From Solibacillus sp. FSL R7-0682 (GTDB taxonomy: Bacteria; Bacillota; Bacilli; Bacillales_A; Planococcaceae), in the NCBI RefSeq assembly GCF_038005985.1, contig NZ_JBBOUI010000001.1:1570001-1634000 (forward strand): DNA of 64,000 bases, written 5' to 3'. The position numbers were made by a program, and so were the translations under genes. A model generated the notes under the pieces. The model had not been told where the DNA came from. It did not search any database and saw nothing but the letters and a program-made list of their open reading frames with translations. This document shows positions 55,466 through 64,000 of this stretch, piece by piece (within the stretch, counting starts at the first letter, position 1; every line of letters begins with the position of its first letter).

Positions 55466-56350
55466 ATGGAGAGCTTCGAAGAAATTTGTTTGAAAAAAAA
55501 TACAATCTTAGATGATACATATAAAATCACAAAAGTTATTTCAATCAGTGAGATTTCAATTATTTATTTAGCTATTAATATATATACAGAAAAAGTAATT
55601 GCGATTAAGGAATTCTATCCGAAAAATCTAGCACTGAGAGATATAGACAATTTAACAGTTGTTAACCGTTTACCATCTACAAAAAAAAAATATGAGGATT
55701 TAAAAAAGGATTTTCATAATGAAATCCTCATATTGCAACAAATTTATCATGAAAAGATCGTTAAGTATTTATCTCACTTTGAGGAAAATGAGACAATCTA
55801 TATTGTTATGGAATATTATGAAGGCATTACATTAAATGAATATTTAAAAAATACCCCATTAAAAGATAGGAAAAATATTAATGAAATTCTATTTATTCCT
55901 CTAATAGATGCACTTCAATATATTCATAAAATGGGAATAATACATCGAGATATTAAACCTAGTAATATAATTATCGATTCAAATAACAACGTTCATTTAC
56001 TTGATTTTGGCGCAGCAGTATTTTATAAAAATCAAAAAGAATTTAAAATCTATACAACCTCAGGATATTCTCCACTAGAACAATATTCTAAACAATCTAT
56101 CCAAGGTGTACATACGGATTTATATAGTTACGCAGCAACATTGTACTATTCATTGACAGGTGTGCTTGTAGAAGATATATCGAAGCGTTTAATAAATGAA
56201 AAAATAAAAAATGTTCGCTACTATAACAAAGAAGTTAGTTTTTTATTATCTTTTATAATTAACTGGGGACTTGCTGTGAATTTTAAGAAAAGATGTTTTT
56301 CATTTACTGTTATAAAAATTACTTTATTTATTGATAAATGGATAAAGTAA
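55466..56350 (+). CDS. Hanks-type Ser/Thr protein kinase with degenerate glycine loop
   Basis: 294 residues, a kinase domain alone without membrane helix. ATP-anchoring Lys48 in IAIKEFYPKNLALRD, catalytic loop HRDIKPSN (His160-Asn167, Asp162), metal-binding DFG (Asp180) in LLDFGAA, and GYSPLEQYS in place of the APE region. The glycine-rich loop is replaced by ISISEISIIYLA with no glycine, so ATP handling may be altered. KEFYP.NLA.RD after the Lys is a pattern I associate with bacterial kinases beside FHA/PP2C modules. Start behind GGGGAGGA. Two hairpins separate it from the downstream cluster, all in the same orientation. Confidence 0.9.
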   Translation: MESFEEICLKKNTILDDTYKITKVISISEISIIYLAINIYTEKVIAIKEFYPKNLALRDIDNLTVVNRLPSTKKKYEDLKKDFHNEILILQQIYHEKIVKYLSHFEENETIYIVMEYYEGITLNEYLKNTPLKDRKNINEILFIPLIDALQYIHKMGIIHRDIKPSNIIIDSNNNVHLLDFGAAVFYKNQKEFKIYTTSGYSPLEQYSKQSIQGVHTDLYSYAATLYYSLTGVLVEDISKRLINEKIKNVRYYNKEVSFLLSFIINWGLAVNFKKRCFSFTVIKITLFIDKWIK

Positions 56351-56363
56351 TTACCTAAAGTCT

Positions 56364-56405
56364 TATAAAAAGAGGAGATTTTTATAAAATCTCCTCTTTT
56401 TTATA
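56364..56405 (+). terminator. Terminator of the kinase gene
   Basis: A long stem around AAAAAGAGGAGATTTT and AAAATCTCCTCTTTTTT (56364-56405) with a three-base loop. Confidence 0.88.
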
Positions 56406-56725
56406 ACTAGTAAATTAATCCTGCGATGTATGAATAATAGACTAGTTAAATAGATGCTATTGTTATGAAATAATTTAATTTGTGCGGCTAGAGTCCCTTG
56501 TTTTAAAGGGTTCTAGCCGCATAATTTTTCTTAGTCACATTGTAAGTTTTAAAAATGAAAAATAGCACTATTTATTGATAAATAACGAGATCAAAAATTA
56601 AAATTTATTATTGAATCATAAAATTAGTTATTTTTTTACAATTTTTTTGTGTCGATAAATATCTCGAAATAGTAAATTGGAATTAAATTAAATAATATAC
56701 AATTATTATATATATTAAACAATTA
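56406..56725. other. Intergenic region with a second strong hairpin
   Basis: No gene seen. TGCGGCTAGA (56483-56492) pairs with TCTAGCCGCA (56512-56521), with an inner CCCTT/AAGGG helix, then TAATTTTTC: a second terminator-like hairpin, GC-rich in an AT-rich stretch. The rest is AT-rich. Confidence 0.6.
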
Positions 56726-56753
56726 TTGACAAAAAACAGTATTGTTTTATAGT
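56726..56753 (+). promoter_or_regulatory. Promoter of the tube/sheath-like cluster
   Basis: TTGACA (56726-56731) and TATAGT (56748-56753), 16-bp spacer, in a very AT-rich region that may act as an UP element. It would leave an untranslated leader of nearly 200 bases. Confidence 0.65.
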
Positions 56754-56947
56754 AAATACAAAGGTAAAAACAAGCAAATAATTAAATTTTACTTACTTTT
56801 CAAAAGTATTTTTACTGCTATTAACATAGTTAATAAGCGGTAAGTTTTTTGAGTTTAATTCCTTTTATTGGTATTTTAGTTTTTAATTGGTATTTACTAA
56901 TTGAAATATTTATTATTCTGAACTTAAAATGAAATGGAGGGATGGCT

Positions 56948-56983
56948 GTGAAAGTAAGCAGCCGTGTAAATGGAGATTATTAA
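56948..56983 (+). other. Short frame with strong ribosome-binding site overlapping the next gene start
   Basis: GTG at 56948 lies seven bases after GGAGG and encodes MKVSSRVNGDY before TAA at 56981. The 722-residue gene starts at an ATG (56970) inside it in another frame and lacks its own site. Skipping base 56978 would fuse the frames into MKVSSRVNGDINQTNRT. Either a leader peptide for translational coupling or the displaced true N-terminus. Confidence 0.45.
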
Positions 56984-59138
56984 TCAGACAAATAGAACTA
57001 TGCTATTTGAAGAAATCAATCCAGAGAAATTAGATTTAATTACACTTGTTGGTGATGTAAAAGGTATTGATAGTCTAAGTGATGAAAAAATTAAAGAGAT
57101 TAACCAATATTTACTAGTAAAAAGTTTTGATGAGTTTTTAGATAAATTTTCTCCGACTGTATATTCATTCTATAATGCTGCAAACCAAAAGGTTATGTAT
57201 ACATTAAAAAAGCCGGAGGGTATTCAAGAAGATTGTATTTCTGAAATTCCGATTGATCAAAATAATGATTTCTTAAAAATGCTTTTTACGCTGATTGATA
57301 CAAAAAGAAGTCAGGGAATCACGAATGTTGATTTCAAATTTGAAAATTTATTAGATATGATTTCTCCAAAAAAAGTGATGGATGATATTCGCCAAGTACG
57401 TAAGGAAATTCATTATCTACACAGTGAGTATGAAAAATTAGATGATAATGACCCGAAGAAGTTAGATACAGGGGACAAACTAAATCTAATGTTTGAAGTA
57501 GCAAGTAAAAATTATAACAATGTCATGGCCATGTTACCTTTGGCAATCGAAGATATAAAAACTAGATTGTTATTAGGCGCTAATCAAGAAGAAGCAACGT
57601 CTGAAAAATTACAAATAGGGACGCTTTCTATTGGAGAAAAGGGTGAACTAAAAATTATCGAAGCACCTAAACCAGATAGTTCAGAGCTTATGGTCCTTTC
57701 AGGTGACGGAAATAATGGTTTAAGTACAATTTTTGAAGAAGATTATGAAGCAATTACTGAGTCACAATCTTCATATGTTAAGGATTTAGTCGTAAGAACG
57801 TTCGCCCCATTACCAATGGTTCAAAATACTATTGATGTAGAAACGGAAGTTCAAAACTATAATACATATCTAGAGTTTTATAAAGATGCCAAGGACGAAT
57901 TCGTAAAAACTGTAAAGCCACTAGTTGAGAAACTGTTAGGCGTGAAAATGTATTTCGATCAATACGCAACGAAAAACAGAGGGATGCAACCATCCTTAAT
58001 TGTGACGAATTCAAAGCTAGATATGCTTGTTAAAAGTAATAATCTTCCACGCTTACAAGCTTATTTAAACACTGTGAACTCTAAAAATGACTTTACAGAT
58101 ACGATTTGGTATGGAATTGTGCCAGCCATTGAACTAGAAGCAACTGGTAAAGCACAAGTTAGCCGAGCAAGATTTAAAGGGAACGAAAAGGTTGCAAAGC
58201 TAGAAGGAAATACAATGGAATCGCTTTCTATGTTATTAGATACGATAAAGGATTATAAAATTCAAATCTTCTTCAATTTCATAGCAGAAGAAACGACAAC
58301 TTTTAACGGCATTGCAACGGCTGGTATAGATCGTCTAATGGATAAATGCCTACCTTTAATGAGAAAAGATTATAGTGAGTTCGCGATTCCTTGTTTACCG
58401 AACTTCACCATTATCCCGAAAGATAAATCTGGCGTAGTTATTGATACAAGAATGGAAGCGCTTGAAAACGGTGCACGTTTATCAAAAGAAAAAGAAGATA
58501 TTTTAAAACTTTGGATTGAAGGAGTTTATGTAGGTGCTAGCTACGTAGCAGCAGGTCTTGCATCGGCTTATCAGTGCCCAGAATATTTAAAAGAGTCCTT
58601 CAGAAATGTGAAGAAATCTTACCCAGGTGTTCGATTTGATATTGAAGCGGGAGATAATTCATTAAGGGCCGTAACAACGATGGCTAAAGAAATTTCAGGT
58701 TTCACGAATAATATAAAAGATTCTATTAATAGTAAAAATTTTGGTTTTGTATTCTCTTCTGAAAATGCCCAGTTACAAGGGAAAGATATTAAAAGAATTA
58801 CAGTATATAAAGCTAGAAGCTTAGCGATGGAAGAAGATGGATTTGATTCCATTTACAAAACGCAAGTAAGTACGTATATTGAGAGAATTTTACGATTCCA
58901 ATCTGGTGACTTTAAACATGAGAATATTGTTCGATTCTTTAGTAACAATCCTTCAAGTCAAAAAAGTCAGTGGATCAATGATAAAGGTTTTATAAACTCT
59001 GTCATTCAAGATGGAGATGACATCGGTTACATCATCGATGAAAAAACTAGCCTATGTCAAATCGATTTAGTATTCAATGGCAATGTTAAAAACCTTGAGG
59101 TATCTATTACAAAAGGTACGAGTGCTGTCAAAGCATAA
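56970..59138 (+). CDS. Large protein, possibly sheath-like, of a tube-forming system
   Basis: 722 residues, no signal peptide or membrane helix. The N-terminal 330 residues are acidic and helical (VDFKFENLLDMI, VRKEIHYLHSEYEK). The C-terminal half has TIWYGIVPAIELEA, IQIFFNFIAEETTTFNGIAT, a WIEGVYVGASYVAAGLASAY segment like the accessory-domain loop of contractile-tail sheaths, and a terminal domain with RFFSNNPSSQKSQWINDKG and FNGNVKNLEVSITKG. I infer a TssC/sheath-like or tail-assembly role because a tube-like gene is next; homology is not proven. No clear ribosome-binding site for the ATG at 56970. Longer than phage or T6SS sheaths (about 400-500 residues). Confidence 0.6.
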   Translation: MEIINQTNRTMLFEEINPEKLDLITLVGDVKGIDSLSDEKIKEINQYLLVKSFDEFLDKFSPTVYSFYNAANQKVMYTLKKPEGIQEDCISEIPIDQNNDFLKMLFTLIDTKRSQGITNVDFKFENLLDMISPKKVMDDIRQVRKEIHYLHSEYEKLDDNDPKKLDTGDKLNLMFEVASKNYNNVMAMLPLAIEDIKTRLLLGANQEEATSEKLQIGTLSIGEKGELKIIEAPKPDSSELMVLSGDGNNGLSTIFEEDYEAITESQSSYVKDLVVRTFAPLPMVQNTIDVETEVQNYNTYLEFYKDAKDEFVKTVKPLVEKLLGVKMYFDQYATKNRGMQPSLIVTNSKLDMLVKSNNLPRLQAYLNTVNSKNDFTDTIWYGIVPAIELEATGKAQVSRARFKGNEKVAKLEGNTMESLSMLLDTIKDYKIQIFFNFIAEETTTFNGIATAGIDRLMDKCLPLMRKDYSEFAIPCLPNFTIIPKDKSGVVIDTRMEALENGARLSKEKEDILKLWIEGVYVGASYVAAGLASAYQCPEYLKESFRNVKKSYPGVRFDIEAGDNSLRAVTTMAKEISGFTNNIKDSINSKNFGFVFSSENAQLQGKDIKRITVYKARSLAMEEDGFDSIYKTQVSTYIERILRFQSGDFKHENIVRFFSNNPSSQKSQWINDKGFINSVIQDGDDIGYIIDEKTSLCQIDLVFNGNVKNLEVSITKGTSAVKA

Positions 59139-59254
59139 ATCATTAAAAAGCTACTATTAAATAGTATATTTTGTATGTTTAAGGTTTATTTCATATAAAT
59201 CTTTTAACATAAATAAGAATTTCTTGCTGTGTTACTTAGATGGAATTTGTACAT

Positions 59255-59279
59255 ATTTCATAATTTCTTTTTATGAAAT
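59255..59279 (+). repeat. Intercistronic hairpin before the tube-like gene
   Basis: ATTTCATAA (59255-59263) and TTATGAAAT (59271-59279), seven-base loop, in the 216-bp gap after the 722-residue gene. No T-run, so RNA processing or stability is more likely than termination. Confidence 0.5.
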
Positions 59280-59354
59280 GTTTTGAATTCATTTATAAAT
59301 TTTATCTAGGTGCAACGGTTGAGGAATTCAATAAAAATTCTAGGAGGTATAAGT

Positions 59355-59780
59355 ATGGGCTTTGTTTTAAAAGTAGAAGGGTCAGAAGCAATTGAACTAG
59401 GATTAGATAGTATTGTTGCTGTCGAGTATGAAACGGATACTCCAAATGACTCGAATGCGCGTTCTACAGATGTAGGTGCAACATTAAAAATTAAAGGGAA
59501 AATTCTTACAGCAACAGATGGTGATAATGCTGATGATACGATGAAATTAGCATTATGGTCATTAGTACCTGCAGAAAAAGCAGATTGTTACCGAAAAGTA
59601 ACGCTTGAAGTTATTTCTGCTGATCAAGTAGTAAGAAAAATTAATTTCCCAAATGCATTTGTTGTTGATTACACGGAGCGTTTTGGTGATACAGAAGGTA
59701 TTGGTGAATTCTTCTTATTCATTAAGCAAAAGAAAGACAAAACAGATTTAGCAAAAGTAGAAGGCGGTTACGCTGTTTAA
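59355..59780 (+). CDS. Small Hcp/tail-tube-like protein
   Basis: 141 residues, no signal peptide, beta-rich. FVLKVEGSEAIELGLDSIV starts the fold; SNARSTDVGATLKIKGKIL, YRKVTLEVISADQVV and NFPNAFVVDYTERFGDTEGI follow, then FLFIKQKK. The 'RKVTLEV...V.FPNA.VVDY...FGDTEG...F.L' plan resembles Hcp/phage tail-tube barrels, in which a late loop and closing strands stack rings. Similar proteins occur in Clostridia under uninformative names, to my recollection. Start ATG 59355 behind TAGGAGG. A strong terminator follows, which would favour its own expression over downstream genes, as expected for a stacked component. Confidence 0.65.
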   Translation: MGFVLKVEGSEAIELGLDSIVAVEYETDTPNDSNARSTDVGATLKIKGKILTATDGDNADDTMKLALWSLVPAEKADCYRKVTLEVISADQVVRKINFPNAFVVDYTERFGDTEGIGEFFLFIKQKKDKTDLAKVEGGYAV

Positions 59781-59800
59781 TAAATAACTGCCATCTTAAT

Positions 59801-59836
59801 ATCTAAGGAGCTATAATAGCTCCTTAGATAATTTTT
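59801..59836 (+). terminator. Terminator or attenuator after the tube-like gene
   Basis: Perfect 14-bp arms TATCTAAGGAGCTA (59801-59814) and TAGCTCCTTAGATA (59818-59831), three-base loop, then TTTTTAATA. The next gene begins 30 bases later, so read-through must serve it or a promoter is hidden nearby. Confidence 0.85.
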
Positions 59837-59865
59837 AATAAGAAAACAAAATAAGGAGAGCTGCT

Positions 59866-60291
59866 ATGAAAACACATTATGACACTTTAGCTGTATCAAA
59901 GGATGCATCGCAGGATCAAATAAAGCTTGCCTATAGAGCACTCTCGAAAAAATATCATCCAGATGTAAACGGTGGAAGTAAGGATGCTGAAAAGATTTTT
60001 CTAGAAGTACAAGAAGCATATACGATTTTGAAAAATAAAACATCTCGAGAAGAATATGATTTAAAGCTAGAAAATTCGACCTACCATACTAGTAAAAATG
60101 TTGAATTTACAAATAGTAAGCAAACGACGGAAAAAAAACAAGCATTTAATATGAATGAGATGGAAAAGAACTTTGAGCAATTTTTTGGATTTAATCCGAA
60201 ATCCAAAGAAATGAAATCGAATACTCAAAATGGAAAAAAGAATCCTATAGATACAAGTGATTTATTTGAACGTTATTTCAATAAGAATTAA
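59866..60291 (+). CDS. J-domain (DnaJ-like) protein
   Basis: 141 residues. N-terminal J-domain (about 3-68) with YDTLAVSKDASQDQIKLAYR and the essential KYHPDVNGGS (HPD), then an unstructured tail ending DLFERYFNKN. No Gly/Phe or zinc-finger region, so a class C J-protein. It would recruit Hsp70 (DnaK) to a client, plausibly the tube/sheath machinery it lies among. AAGGAGAG precedes the ATG. Confidence 0.9.
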   Translation: MKTHYDTLAVSKDASQDQIKLAYRALSKKYHPDVNGGSKDAEKIFLEVQEAYTILKNKTSREEYDLKLENSTYHTSKNVEFTNSKQTTEKKQAFNMNEMEKNFEQFFGFNPKSKEMKSNTQNGKKNPIDTSDLFERYFNKN

Positions 60292-60320
60292 TAATTCGTT
60301 TTTATGGGAGAGAGCATGTA

Positions 60321-60893
60321 ATGGAAGAGGGAAAAGTATCAACAAGTGCATATTTAGAAAATGAGAAGAATCAAAAAATCGTAAAAAGTATAGATATCGC
60401 AATTGTAGTGATAGCGTGCTTTTTTATTTTATTTGTATTCATAATAAGTGAGGACTTTTTAATGAAAGTTATATTGGGAAGTATTTTTTTTATTGTCTCG
60501 TGTATTTATGGAATTATATTGTATGAAACAAGAAATGTAACGAATAGTCATACTAAAATTAGAAAGCTTGTACTCCTTAATAATCAAGGAGATGAAATAG
60601 ATGAATGGATACTAGAAAATCAAACAGCATTAGTAATAGGAAAAAGTTCCCGAGAAAATAAGGTGGATATTGATTTAAGCGGGACAGAATATGAATCGTT
60701 AATAAGTCTAGAACATGCTGTTTTAAATTGTGTTTCTGGAAAATGGTATATCGAAGACATCGATGCGATTAACTGTATAGGAATAAAGAAGGCACACAAT
60801 TTGATGAAGAATCAATTAAAGGATGGAAGTCCACACCCAATAAATAGTGGAGATACATTATATATAGCCAATACTAGAATGTTAGTGAAATAG
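60321..60893 (+). CDS. Membrane-anchored FHA-domain protein
   Basis: 190 residues. Two adjacent membrane helices (about 24-44 and 50-70) with both ends cytoplasmic, then a C-terminal FHA domain (about 80-190): ALVIGKSSRENKVDIDLSG supplies the glycine/arginine turn, ISLEHAVL the Ser-x-x-His motif, and the end PHPINSGDTLYIANTRMLV matches the last strands. FHA domains bind phosphothreonine, so it is a likely docking partner or substrate of the cluster kinase at the membrane. 30 bases behind the J-protein gene. Confidence 0.85.
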   Translation: MEEGKVSTSAYLENEKNQKIVKSIDIAIVVIACFFILFVFIISEDFLMKVILGSIFFIVSCIYGIILYETRNVTNSHTKIRKLVLLNNQGDEIDEWILENQTALVIGKSSRENKVDIDLSGTEYESLISLEHAVLNCVSGKWYIEDIDAINCIGIKKAHNLMKNQLKDGSPHPINSGDTLYIANTRMLVK

Positions 60894-60930
60894 TCATAAA
60901 GATAAAGTGATTGCTAAGGGAGATTAGAAT

Positions 60931-61458
60931 ATGAGTTTAATTAGATGCACAAATGGTCATATGTTTAGTTCAAGGAGACATCGAAATATTTGTCCTTATT
61001 GTAATGTCGTTGTAGAGCAGGAATCTAAAATAGCAAATCAAGCTGTAGCTGTGGCAGAAGTAGATGACAAAACAATGCCTTACTTAGGAGAAATGGATGG
61101 AATCAATCCCGTAACTGGATGGTTAGTATGTATCGAAGGTCCACAGTTGGGAAGAGATTATCGAATCTTATCTGAAAAGAATTTTATCGGTCGAGATGAG
61201 GATATGCATATTCGAATTATAGGGGATAATTCGATTTCAAAACGAAATCATGCAGTTATTGTTTATGACCCTAAAAAAAGGAACTTTTACCTCCTTCCTG
61301 GTGATGCTTCAGGATTAGCCTATCTTAATAATGAGGCAGTATATACCCCTACTGAGCTAGCAGCCTATGATGTTATACAGTTAGGAAGAAGTATTTTTTT
61401 ATTTATACCTTTATGTGGTGTTCATTTCGAATGGGAAAACAATCAAGGTGGGGAATGA
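60931..61458 (+). CDS. Zinc-ribbon and FHA-domain protein
   Basis: 175 residues. The N-terminal CTNGH...RNICPYC (residues 6-25) looks like a one-metal zinc ribbon. A linker with DDKTMPYLGEMDG follows, then the FHA domain (about 65-170): RDYRILSEKNFIGRDEDMHI (GRD turn), NSISKRNHAVIVYD (SxxxxH motif), YLNNEAVYTPTELAAYDVI, QLGRSIFLFI. The linker Thr (KTMPYLG) is a plausible phosphosite by analogy with Fha-type proteins. No membrane helix. Four bases from the PP2C gene. Confidence 0.86.
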   Translation: MSLIRCTNGHMFSSRRHRNICPYCNVVVEQESKIANQAVAVAEVDDKTMPYLGEMDGINPVTGWLVCIEGPQLGRDYRILSEKNFIGRDEDMHIRIIGDNSISKRNHAVIVYDPKKRNFYLLPGDASGLAYLNNEAVYTPTELAAYDVIQLGRSIFLFIPLCGVHFEWENNQGGE

Positions 61459-61461
61459 TGA

Positions 61462-62301
61462 GTGGTGGATTCCAAAATATTGTCATATGTATTTTCAATT
61501 CTTTTAATTCTCATTATGATCTCCCTTTTAATTATTCGAAATATTCTTTTGAGTAAAAAAGAGAATAGTCAAATAGAGATAGGAAATGCACAAACGATCG
61601 GAGCTCGAGAAGAACAAGATGATTATTTTGCAACATGTGAAACAAAAAATGGGACGATGGCTGTATTAGCAGATGGAATTAGTGGCTTAGCGAATGGTCG
61701 CATGGCAAGTACAGTGGCGGTTACTACGTTTATAGAAGCCTTTAGCGCATTGGAGAATCTTGCAAATATACAAGCATTTTTTAAAAAAACAGCCGTAAAG
61801 AGTAATCAACAAATTGTCCAAAATTTAAACGGTTCTAATGGTGGTACAACATTAGTAGCCGTAATTATTGATGAAAAAGGTTATCTTCATTGGGGAGCTG
61901 TTGGAGATAGTGTCATTACGATATTCCGTAAAGGCGAATTTCTTCCTATTAATGAAAAGCATATTTTTGAAAATGTGTTAAAAGAGCGCTACATTGCAGG
62001 AGAAATTTCGCAATTAGAAATACAAGAAAATCCTTTAAAAAAGAGATTGATTAACTATTTAGGTTACGAAGGGTTTAAAAAAATGGATATAGGTACAACG
62101 CCTATCCAATTGTTTTCGGGAGATAAAATATGTCTCTTTAGTGATGGAATATATGATGCGTTAACAGAGGTAGAATTGGAGCAATTACTTTCTCGACAGG
62201 CTGCGCCTTATGATATTGCCAATAACATTATTCATGTTATTGAAAAAAAGCATTTAAAAAATCAAGATAATGCAACTATCGTTATACTCGAAAAACTGTG
62301 A
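61462..62301 (+). CDS. Membrane-anchored PP2C-family protein phosphatase
   Basis: 279 residues. One N-terminal membrane helix (about 6-27) and a PP2C/PPM domain (about 40-279) with all metal-binding Asp motifs: ADGISG (Asp71), VGDSV (Asp149), FSDGIYD (Asp228) and QDNAT (Asp269). It should dephosphorylate Ser/Thr substrates, opposing the kinase. GTG start about eight bases behind GGTGGGG. Directly upstream of a second, degenerate PP2C-like gene. Confidence 0.9.
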   Translation: MVDSKILSYVFSILLILIMISLLIIRNILLSKKENSQIEIGNAQTIGAREEQDDYFATCETKNGTMAVLADGISGLANGRMASTVAVTTFIEAFSALENLANIQAFFKKTAVKSNQQIVQNLNGSNGGTTLVAVIIDEKGYLHWGAVGDSVITIFRKGEFLPINEKHIFENVLKERYIAGEISQLEIQENPLKKRLINYLGYEGFKKMDIGTTPIQLFSGDKICLFSDGIYDALTEVELEQLLSRQAAPYDIANNIIHVIEKKHLKNQDNATIVILEKL

Positions 62302-62334
62302 TAAACATATTGGCGTGTAATAAGGAGGTATATC

Positions 62335-63960
62335 GTGAGAAGAGAAAATAGTGATTTTAAAACTAGCTTCTTATCTGAAGCAGGCTCATTCATGCAAAAT
62401 CGTGATTATTTTGCCTATACCGAATTGGATGACATGGTTTGTTGGGTAGCTGTAAAAGGTTTAGATACCGATCAAGAGATGAAGAGTGCAGAGTTAGCTG
62501 TTAAAGCTGTTCTCGAATCGTTTATGGAAAAACCATCTCTATCGAAAAATAGTGTGAAAAGATATATGAAAAAGGCACATCAACAACTACAAATACAAAG
62601 TTTAAGAGTTCGTTTAAAGGCTAGTATTGTAATTGTTGTTTCAAATTACTCAAAGTTGATTTATGCAGTGGCAGGTAATTCACGGTTTTATCATTTTCGC
62701 AATGGGTCTCTATTACATAGAAGTAATGACCAGAGTTTGGCGCAAGAAATCGTTAATGAAAAGAACCGATCTTTTGAAATAAACAAGCATGAAGAAAAGA
62801 GTAATTTATTAAATTATTTAGGGAAACCAAATGATTTTAAGCCTTATATTTCAAAGAAAATGAAGTTAATGGATGGAGATGTGTTGCTTCTAACTACCCC
62901 TGGATTTTGGGAAGATGTCAATGAAGTTGAAATGGCAGATGCTTTAGAACTAGCAAAAGATCCAATTCAATATACGGACTTATTAGAAGAAGTGCTACTA
63001 AGCAGGCAAAATAAAATCATTAACAATTATACAATTGCCGCAGTATTTGTAAATAAAGTTTATCAAGAATCCAATAAGAAAAAAATGAAATACATTAAAA
63101 TCATTGCGGCAGCACTTATTGCAACCTTGATTGTTGGTGGAAGTACGTTGTTTTATCAAGCGAAACAAGCAAAGAAGCTAGCTGAATTAGCTGTTGAAAT
63201 GAAGGATCATGAAGAAACAGGAAATTTATATTTTGAGGACGCCAGCTACGAGGAAGCACTAATGGAATATAGTAAGGGAAGAAATATCGCAAAGAAATTA
63301 AAAGATCCGGTACATAGAAATTTATTAGGTACAAAGTTAAGAGTAACGCAACTTATTATTAACGGAGATAAGGCAGCAGAGGCAGGTAAATTCCCTGAGG
63401 CAATGGAGCAATTTGAAAAAGCAAGCCAAGAAGGAAAAATCGTAAAAAATTTTGGGAAAGATGTAATACAACAAAAAATTGCTAATATGGATTCTATTGT
63501 TCAAATTGTTGAAACTACAAAGAATGGAGATCATCAATTTGATTCAGAAGATTATTTTACGGCATTAGCTTCCTATGAAAAGGCAAGAAAAAAAGCAGTG
63601 GCAATATCGTTTAGTGGAGAGCCTCAAATAAAGACTAAAATTGAAGAAACGGAAGAAAAAATAGCAGAACTGAAGAAGGTACAAAAAGAACTGAAGGCGG
63701 AATCTCTAGAAAAGAACGGAGACAATAGCTATGCCAAGCAGGACTATGTAAATGCACTAGATTCGTATGTATTAGCACAAGAAATTTATCAAGAGACGGA
63801 ATTACTAGCAAAAGTATTAGGGCTCGAGCGAAAAATTATGAATGTTAATGAAAAGTTAAATCCGGTACTACCAACTCCGGTAGCAGATGTATCACCAAAT
63901 CTTGATCCACTAGAGAGTGAAGAGGAAAGTAGTGAAAACGTGGGGAAGGGAGGGGAATAA
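62335..63960 (+). CDS. Pseudo-PP2C membrane protein with TPR-like repeats
   Basis: 541 residues. N-terminal PP2C-fold domain (about 1-240) lacking every metal Asp: AVKG (Lys41), AGNS (Asn115), TTPG (Pro189) and NNYT (Asn230) stand where PP2C has ADG, GDS, TDG and DN. One membrane helix (about 254-273) follows, then about four helical repeats of TPR type, each starting G(D/N)..(F/Y/A)...Y..AL..Y, and an acidic Pro/Ser tail. Topology would place the pseudophosphatase inside and the repeats outside. GTG start behind AAGGAGG. Probably a phospho-sensing scaffold. Confidence 0.85.
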   Translation: MRRENSDFKTSFLSEAGSFMQNRDYFAYTELDDMVCWVAVKGLDTDQEMKSAELAVKAVLESFMEKPSLSKNSVKRYMKKAHQQLQIQSLRVRLKASIVIVVSNYSKLIYAVAGNSRFYHFRNGSLLHRSNDQSLAQEIVNEKNRSFEINKHEEKSNLLNYLGKPNDFKPYISKKMKLMDGDVLLLTTPGFWEDVNEVEMADALELAKDPIQYTDLLEEVLLSRQNKIINNYTIAAVFVNKVYQESNKKKMKYIKIIAAALIATLIVGGSTLFYQAKQAKKLAELAVEMKDHEETGNLYFEDASYEEALMEYSKGRNIAKKLKDPVHRNLLGTKLRVTQLIINGDKAAEAGKFPEAMEQFEKASQEGKIVKNFGKDVIQQKIANMDSIVQIVETTKNGDHQFDSEDYFTALASYEKARKKAVAISFSGEPQIKTKIEETEEKIAELKKVQKELKAESLEKNGDNSYAKQDYVNALDSYVLAQEIYQETELLAKVLGLERKIMNVNEKLNPVLPTPVADVSPNLDPLESEEESSENVGKGGE

Positions 63961-63961
63961 T

Positions 63962-64000
63962 ATGTTAAAGGAAATCATGTATGAAAGACTACGTAAAATT
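63962..64000 (+). CDS. Start of the next gene in the cluster (partial)
   Basis: An ATG at 63962 follows GGGAAGGGAGGGG and encodes MLKEIMYERLRKI up to the window edge. It is too short to identify. The close spacing to the upstream stop suggests the operon continues. Confidence 0.6.
   Translation, partial: MLKEIMYERLRKI

Follow-up and report, generated by a model that had tools for sequence, protein, structure and literature searches.

A candidate T6SS-like contractile injection locus in Solibacillus and related Bacillota

The type VI secretion system (T6SS) is classically presented as belonging to Gram-negative bacteria. What, then, is encoded by a gene cluster of a Bacillota genome in which a kinase, FHA and PP2C circuit stands beside tube-like and sheath-like genes? 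The cluster lies at the right-hand end of a 64,000-nucleotide stretch of the 4.06-Mb genome of Solibacillus sp. FSL R7-0682 (C1:1570001-1634000, hereafter the window), and, as an initial annotation of the window had anticipated, its operon continues past the right edge, by about 13 kb. We examined a further 60 kb to the right and coined protein names of the form P### for this analysis. On the evidence set out below, the locus likely specifies a T6SS-like contractile injection system that Gram-positive bacteria keep bound to the cell.

Gene content and conservation of the locus

The list of open reading frames (ORFs) gives a single run of eight genes on the + strand, from the kinase to a PP2C-like protein with a transmembrane (TM) helix and a TPR-like tail. 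The initial annotation had named on this strand a kinase, a sheath-like protein, an Hcp-like protein, a J-protein, two FHA proteins, a PP2C phosphatase and a pseudo-PP2C/TPR membrane protein; ORFs, Pfam and NCBIfam place all of them there, except that the second FHA assignment found no support. P722, a 722-residue protein (56970..59138, +) and candidate one-piece contractile sheath by its TssB-like N-terminal part and gene context, precedes the gene of an Hcp/TssD-like probable tube protein of 141 residues (59355..59780, +; ATG at 59355).

This gene order was found again in dozens of homologous loci, so the arrangement is not due to chance. Among the 44 named loci, and limited to those whose sequence reaches far enough downstream, the Hcp gene is present behind P722 in 40/41, and DnaJ, the TM protein and the FHA protein are each present in 38/40. 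PP2C follows with 37/40, the PP2C-like/TPR protein with 36/38, P426 with 35/38, P233 with 31/36 and the Hsp70-like protein with 34/36; the misses include a locus with broken frames (L071) and a Ureibacillus version (L086). Among 200 genomes of the family, P722 and the spike protein VgrG1 occur in the same 29. The FHA protein and P426 share 28 genomes, all within these 29, and the single P722 genome that has neither (G164) holds a distant version. Across the phylum, P722 was matched in 14 of 398 genomes, or 13 without the match in G300, which is false and concerns a membrane protein of another kind. No P722 match was found in 72,556 plasmid records or 50,697 phage records.

The named loci come mostly from Bacillota. 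Their hosts include Lysinibacillus, Brevibacillus, Paenibacillus, Clostridium, Propionispira, Selenomonadaceae, Halanaerobacter, Acetivibrio and Cetobacterium, and comprise both one-membrane and two-membrane bacteria. The copy in Cetobacterium (L076; Fusobacteriota) is divergent: P260 adjoins its tube gene, and a PP2C relative was not found in the stretch examined.

Beyond the window the same operon encodes a spike, a tip and toxins. VgrG2 (C1:1643804-1645348) matches Phage_GPD (E 5.3e-10) and Phage_base_V, a gp5-type OB domain (1.5e-5), both past the Pfam cut-offs; VgrG1 (C1:1640111-1641535) matches the same two families under the cut-off. Profiles of both proteins match the VgrG of T6SS with a probability of 94-97. 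The tip protein (C1:1643350-1643766) belongs to DUF4280 (Pfam, 1.1e-35), a family classed as a PAAR type in the accessible part of PMC8651086. A pentapeptide protein (C1:1641562-1642716) is also part of the operon. The rightward extension proposed in the initial annotation therefore yielded spikes, a PAAR-like tip and effectors, but neither an AAA+ ATPase nor a recognisable T6SS or phage baseplate protein beyond the hub and spike. Its statement that phage genes are lacking is borne out in the sequence examined as regards integrase, portal and terminase, although the spike genes themselves carry phage hub and gp5-type domains.

VgrG2 is followed by a toxin gene (C1:1645348-1646631) and by a gene presumed from its position alone to confer immunity (C1:1646628-1647302; no Pfam match). 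Ten ORFs behind VgrG2, a portion of the array described below, were scanned, eight of them toxin ORFs. All eight carry a PT-TG pre-toxin domain, and six carry a toxin domain over cut-off (HNH, Endonuclea_NS_2, LHH twice, Ntox15 and GH-E). One of the two other ORFs is a YezG-like immunity protein, which accompanies the Endonuclea_NS_2 toxin, and the other had no match. DNA shared by the VgrG2 tail and the toxin head recurs in 11 further segments over C1:1648406-1674469, with 78-98% identity, and three of these extend into the VgrG2 tail. This 26-kb array is a store of spare toxin cassettes; it is broken by genes resembling IS66-type transposases, named by eye.

In relatives, toxins may be fused to the spike. 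A Lysinibacillus-group genome encodes a VgrG-Rhs-AHH nuclease fusion of 1847 residues (L241:5004-10544; GPD match under cut-off), many relatives have open frames of about 1600-1880 residues at their VgrG matches, and in another a VgrG continues into a region resembling Endonuclea_NS_2, which falls slightly short of the cut-off and is truncated where the sequence ends. From these domains, the cargoes are predicted to be antibacterial-type toxins carried on the spike. The constant N-terminal part, variable toxin tips, immunity and spare cassettes together characterize a polymorphic toxin system. One toxin (L001:13349-14629) is extremely basic, with a net charge of +91 in 427 residues, and this charge is possibly a loading signal for an acidic spike.

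Probable tube, candidate sheath and candidate baseplate

The 141-residue protein had been described as Hcp-like, and a weak but repeated match to TssD and Hcp upholds that description. Pfam TssD was matched at E<=0.1 by 24 of the 31 tube-family members (best 4.5e-4). Profiles built from 31 and 24 members had a sole PDB match at E<=10, Hcp1 6bdc (0.0046 and 0.0071), which a 5-row profile ranked second (E 0.79). We take 6bdc and TssD to be members of the Bacteroidota T6SS subtype iii. The protein is a probable tube protein, its Hcp identity being supported, if weakly, by these matches. Of 16 T6SS loci retrieved, 8 have Hcp annotated as the immediate successor of tssC, an order that the pair P722 and Hcp resembles. 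Two tandem tube genes stand behind P722 in L064, L067-L070, L072, L074 and L077-L080, whose hosts include many Clostridia and Negativicutes and also Paenibacillus popilliae; an Acetivibrio locus (L084) has two P722-tube pairs.

A terminator-like hairpin lies 3' of the tube gene (59800..59830, +). It is one of three terminator-like sites seen in the region against 1.8 expected, which is weak taken alone. In relatives, a hairpin follows the tube gene in 24/58 gene pairs (21/49 loci); the 58 pairs were recounted by hand from 49 loci, some of which count twice through tandem Hcp genes. Hairpins were found in 4/70 cases at the junction before the tube gene and in 0/221 at five later junctions, the former being the fairer control because the gaps at the later junctions are shorter. 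The hairpin is possibly an attenuator that parts the sheath and tube genes from the remaining operon, a position that fits a need for excess sheath and tube, the most abundant parts.

For P722, the T6SS reference sets were built from UTI89 and plasmid loci, with genes in two of the loci (L237 and L238) assigned by position or length, without annotation. The N-terminal part (first 225 residues) aligned to 15 TssB with a score of 30.1 (E 7.8e-4, probability 25 of 100). None of 200 column shuffles, made for this version of the N-part comparison alone, reached that score (best 25.2). The best of 25 other families against TssB scored 20.6, below the P722 N part, with decoy families from neighbouring genes numbering only 9, and the best of all reversed-profile comparisons scored 26.4. 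We rely on these three controls because single-pair E-values are rough. An earlier run against 9 TssB gave 24.0 (E 0.0083), still top of 13 references, and full-length P722 scored 30.4, 29.6 and 30.5 (E 0.003-0.005). The TssB-like region spans residues about 26-147 and, judged by eye, the alignment takes in the part of TssB that carries V-x-F-x-F, P, V and LR. Since reference TssB and TssC proteins measure 158-184 and 462-515 residues, 722 residues would fit one chain of TssB plus TssC. No other component is as well conserved as P722, which has a mean column identity of 58-72% against 40-49% for Hcp, P426, P233, P260, P196 and Hsp70, in sets that differ in breadth between components. The TssB likeness is supported but weak; taken as a modest match together with its context, it makes P722 a likely sheath. 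Genome G033 additionally contains a remnant in which just the two termini of P722 are matched (G033:C15:6714-6975), near VgrG copies and on a different contig from the intact locus.

Candidates for the baseplate can be named by position: P426, which begins in the window (63959..64000, +; whole gene C1:1633959-1635239), P233 (C1:1635230-1635931), P260 (C1:1638633-1639415) and P196 (C1:1642704-1643294). Relatives of all four reach distant loci. Between P260 and VgrG1 lies P231 (C1:1639419-1640114), which like these four has no clear family. An 888-residue Hsp70-like protein (C1:1635936-1638602) belongs to the same operon, which also includes a J-domain protein, likewise of 141 residues (59866..60291, +; Pfam DnaJ, 1e-22), and separate, clear Hsp70 proteins occur in distant loci (9.9e-56 and 3.3e-102). 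Pfam matched no AAA+ family in the proteins of the operon, nor was there a ClpV (TssH) profile match among the operon families. We suggest that Hsp70 and the J-protein may stand in for ClpV; because no AAA+ ATPase was found in the operon, a role in cargo folding or sheath recycling is proposed for them.

A number of results weigh against these assignments. The tube protein of the window falls under the TssD family cut-off (E 0.014), and the tube-family profile found no match in a proteobacterial Hcp set. The TssB score of P722 varies with the alignment (24.0 against 29.6-30.5), at a probability of 25 of 100. Its C-terminal 500 residues scored 25.7 against TssC, where the best of 100 shuffles reached 25.5 and another operon family 25.2, and the aligned positions do not correspond; against 24 phage sheaths the C part scored 16.1, with 60 shuffles reaching up to 21.8. 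Searches of P722 in Pfam, NCBIfam and the PDB returned only chance-looking matches: 30 members scanned with Pfam and NCBIfam gave no sheath family, and PDB searches with the whole protein, the N part and the C part gave no sheath. Among the baseplate candidates, P426, P233, P260 and P196 have no TssA/E/F/G/K profile match; these four and P231 matched nothing among profiles of TssA/B/C/E/F/G/H/K/L, Hcp, phage tube and phage sheath. P426, P233 and P260 also found no meaningful PDB chain and no Pfam family over cut-off (P196 was scanned against Pfam as a single sequence only). The 888-residue protein resembles Hsp70/actin weakly (Pfam 0.014, under cut-off), and its profile retrieved no PDB chain at E<=0.01.

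The kinase, FHA and PP2C genes

The first gene of the run encodes a Ser/Thr kinase of the Hanks type (55466..56350, +; 294 residues; Pfam Pkinase, 2.9e-34) that keeps the HRDIKPSN and DFG motifs and, judged by them, is probably active. A kinase gene precedes P722 in many of the homologous loci as well. The 620-bp gap between the two genes includes a hairpin with a T-run at about 56367-56402, seen by eye and not listed by the hairpin scan, and the kinase is therefore possibly a separate transcription unit.

Downstream of the J-protein, a membrane protein (60321..60893, +; hydrophobic stretch 18-60) shows by eye an S..HA motif of a possible degenerate FHA domain. Pfam gives no support for this second FHA, and the profile of the protein matches the first FHA protein with a probability of 0.9 of 100; Pfam FHA is matched only by the protein at 60931..61458 (+; 4e-8). 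The PP2C phosphatase (61462..62301, +; PP2C_2, 1.2e-15; Stp1 model, 9e-31) has the DG/SDG/DN motifs and an N-terminal membrane anchor (hydrophobic stretch 1-33). The last protein of the run (62335..63960, +) combines a PP2C-like, probably inactive domain with a TM helix (hydrophobic stretch 251-269) and the TPR-like tail. It matches the NCBIfam Stp1-type PP2C model at 1.6e-12, below the model cut-off. SDG and DN are missing and KG replaces the first DG, so the label pseudo-PP2C, given in the initial annotation, holds by motif.

The gene set of the threonine phosphorylation pathway, comprising kinase, FHA protein and PP2C, is present together. In the T6SS of Agrobacterium, binding of Fha to the phosphothreonine of TssL activates secretion, according to the available part of PMC3953482. 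At the present locus, possible partners of the FHA protein are the TM protein encoded at 60321 and the TPR protein.

A protein with VWA and Ig-like domains, and by eye a membrane helix, adjoins P722 in 26 loci (for example L048:7503-9719), 21 of them from Paenibacillus or Brevibacillus. Its gene is on the opposite strand in these two genera and upstream on the same strand in some Clostridia. It could act as a contact sensor. A search of the window's own genome, made without a positive control, found no VWA relative. By eye the VWA protein seemed to end in an FHA-like tail, which profile comparison did not support. One profile score, of P08 against P07, was set aside, as members of P08 had been included in the P07 set.

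The switch genes do not always accompany the core. At three distant loci (L034, L229/L230 and L231/L232), P722, Hcp and VgrG occur with P426/P233 and/or P260, and FHA and PP2C relatives are not in the stretch examined, which also counts against the proposed system; L232 has a kinase relative further down. The kinase was not seen in the stretch examined for L066-L074 and L077-L080, although L224 and L226 do have one at a greater distance downstream. Because the core recurs without FHA/PP2C in these three distant loci, we read the phospho-switch as common but dispensable, added to or lost from a machine that consists of the core, and the machine itself as not refuted. The co-conservation predicted in the initial annotation thus holds in the main clade and was not seen for FHA/PP2C in the stretches examined at the three distant loci. 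Its central idea, a phospho-switch on a tubular or contractile structure, finds the parts and their co-occurrence in that clade, and its interpretation overall is partly supported, with the sheath predicted from a modest TssB-like match plus context.

Relation to known systems and alternative readings

The locus shares with T6SS a VgrG spike, a PAAR-like tip and a probable, Hcp-like tube whose gene adjoins that of the probable sheath, a kinase, FHA and PP2C set as in the PpkA-Fha-PppA threonine phosphorylation pathway, and VgrG- and Rhs-linked nuclease toxins with immunity. It differs in that its sheath is probably a single chain, its loci come mostly from Bacillota, and an Hsp70-like protein and a J-protein are present, with no relative of TssA/E/F/G/K/L or ClpV by profile. 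Profiles of TssE, TssF, TssG and TssK matched none of the operon families in two comparisons, one of 18 and one of 11 families. For the TssJ/L/M membrane complex the comparison covered TssL, of which a five-sequence profile matched none of 18 families. The tube protein points weakly toward the Bacteroidota subtype iii through TssD and Hcp1 6bdc. The DUF4280 family also comes up in a paper about T6SS in Bacteroides fragilis.

Extracellular contractile injection systems (eCIS; Afp/PVC-like) are likewise comparable in their VgrG and tip and are known in Firmicutes. However, a genome-wide family search detected neither the sheath family PF04984 nor Baseplate_J (PF04865) nor gp25 (PF04965), a soft negative because the same search missed an FHA domain that hmmscan detects at 34 bits. 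Since TssE/F/G/K/L and ClpV fail, as do the eCIS features, if softly, the locus is T6SS-like in predicted gene content and is filed under neither T6SS nor eCIS.

A close published pattern is that of Phage_GPD-type VgrG genes adjoining DUF4280 in those Firmicutes that have neither T6SS nor eCIS genes. For these Phage_GPD/PAAR_H2 pairs, the accessible part of PMC8651086 speculates on an "unknown phage-like translocation system"; it describes no sheath, tube or machinery, which are proposed at the present locus. A 2012 table includes firmicutes among the phyla with T6SS-delivered toxins (available part of PMC3482391). The available parts of PMC8651086, PMC3482391, PMC8651079, PMC12923769 and PMC4122934 describe no such machinery, and no description of it came up in searches of an open-access library that lacks preprints and most subscription papers.

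Several other accounts of the locus deserve consideration. The product could be a free extracellular particle, related to eCIS or R-type tailocins and released by lysis, as VgrG and tip proteins occur in eCIS too and eCIS are reported from Firmicutes including Brevibacillus (PMC4122934) and Paenibacillus (PMC12923769), in the accessible parts of these papers. Beyond the missing eCIS families, a soft point, no lysis, tape-measure or tail-fibre family appears among the operon Pfam matches, and three proteins with membrane stretches plus a phospho-circuit fit a cell-bound machine; we regard a free particle as very unlikely. The locus might instead form a non-contractile tube and spike, with P722 a scaffold, a chaperone or a tape-like protein and the spike exported otherwise. 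This would accommodate the lack of a convincing sheath match over most of P722 and of a recognisable baseplate, but sits poorly with an N part that exceeds its shuffles and 25 other families in TssB likeness, and with a protein that is the best conserved of the set, upstream of the tube gene and often ahead of an attenuator-like hairpin. We consider this account unlikely.

That the locus is a degenerate prophage or a functionless T6SS remnant is suggested only by its patchy distribution (29/200 family and 13-14/398 phylum genomes); open frames, a gene order stable over many genera, and toxin and immunity genes with spare cassettes, which imply use, make this extremely improbable. A narrower doubt concerns the FHA, PP2C and kinase genes, which might be mere neighbours that regulate something else. 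The distant loci with a core but no FHA/PP2C in the examined stretch, and those where the kinase was not seen in that stretch, are consistent with such an account, whereas the presence of the FHA protein in the same 28/200 genomes as P426 and in 38/40 named loci speaks against it, and we consider it unlikely.

For the preferred cell-bound contractile system, P722 would most likely form the sheath, one polypeptide taking the place of both TssB and TssC, around an inner tube of the 141-residue protein. VgrG1 and VgrG2 with the DUF4280 protein would form the spike and tip, some of P426, P233, P260, P231 and P196 the baseplate and loading adaptors, and the TM protein at 60321, PP2C and pseudo-PP2C/TPR protein an anchor and signalling hub. 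The kinase would phosphorylate a partner that the FHA protein then binds, licensing assembly, and PP2C would reset the switch. The Hsp70-like ATPase and J-protein may fold cargo or recycle the contracted sheath. Upon firing, nuclease toxins that VgrG bears as cargo or as part of its own chain would enter rival bacteria.

There is roughly an even chance that the locus represents a separate class of contractile injection system, found mainly in Bacillota, with a sheath of one chain, a baseplate and an anchor of its own, Hsp70/J-protein recycling in place of ClpV and a kinase/FHA/PP2C firing switch, and that it is the machine behind the VgrG-DUF4280 toxins of Firmicutes. If it is a working system in a single thick-walled envelope, such a device could be built without the known membrane complex, and the published puzzle of orphan VgrG-PAAR pairs in Firmicutes would be explained. 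Many culturable soil bacteria such as Lysinibacillus, Paenibacillus and Brevibacillus would thereby gain a testable contact weapon, together with new toxin and immunity pairs.

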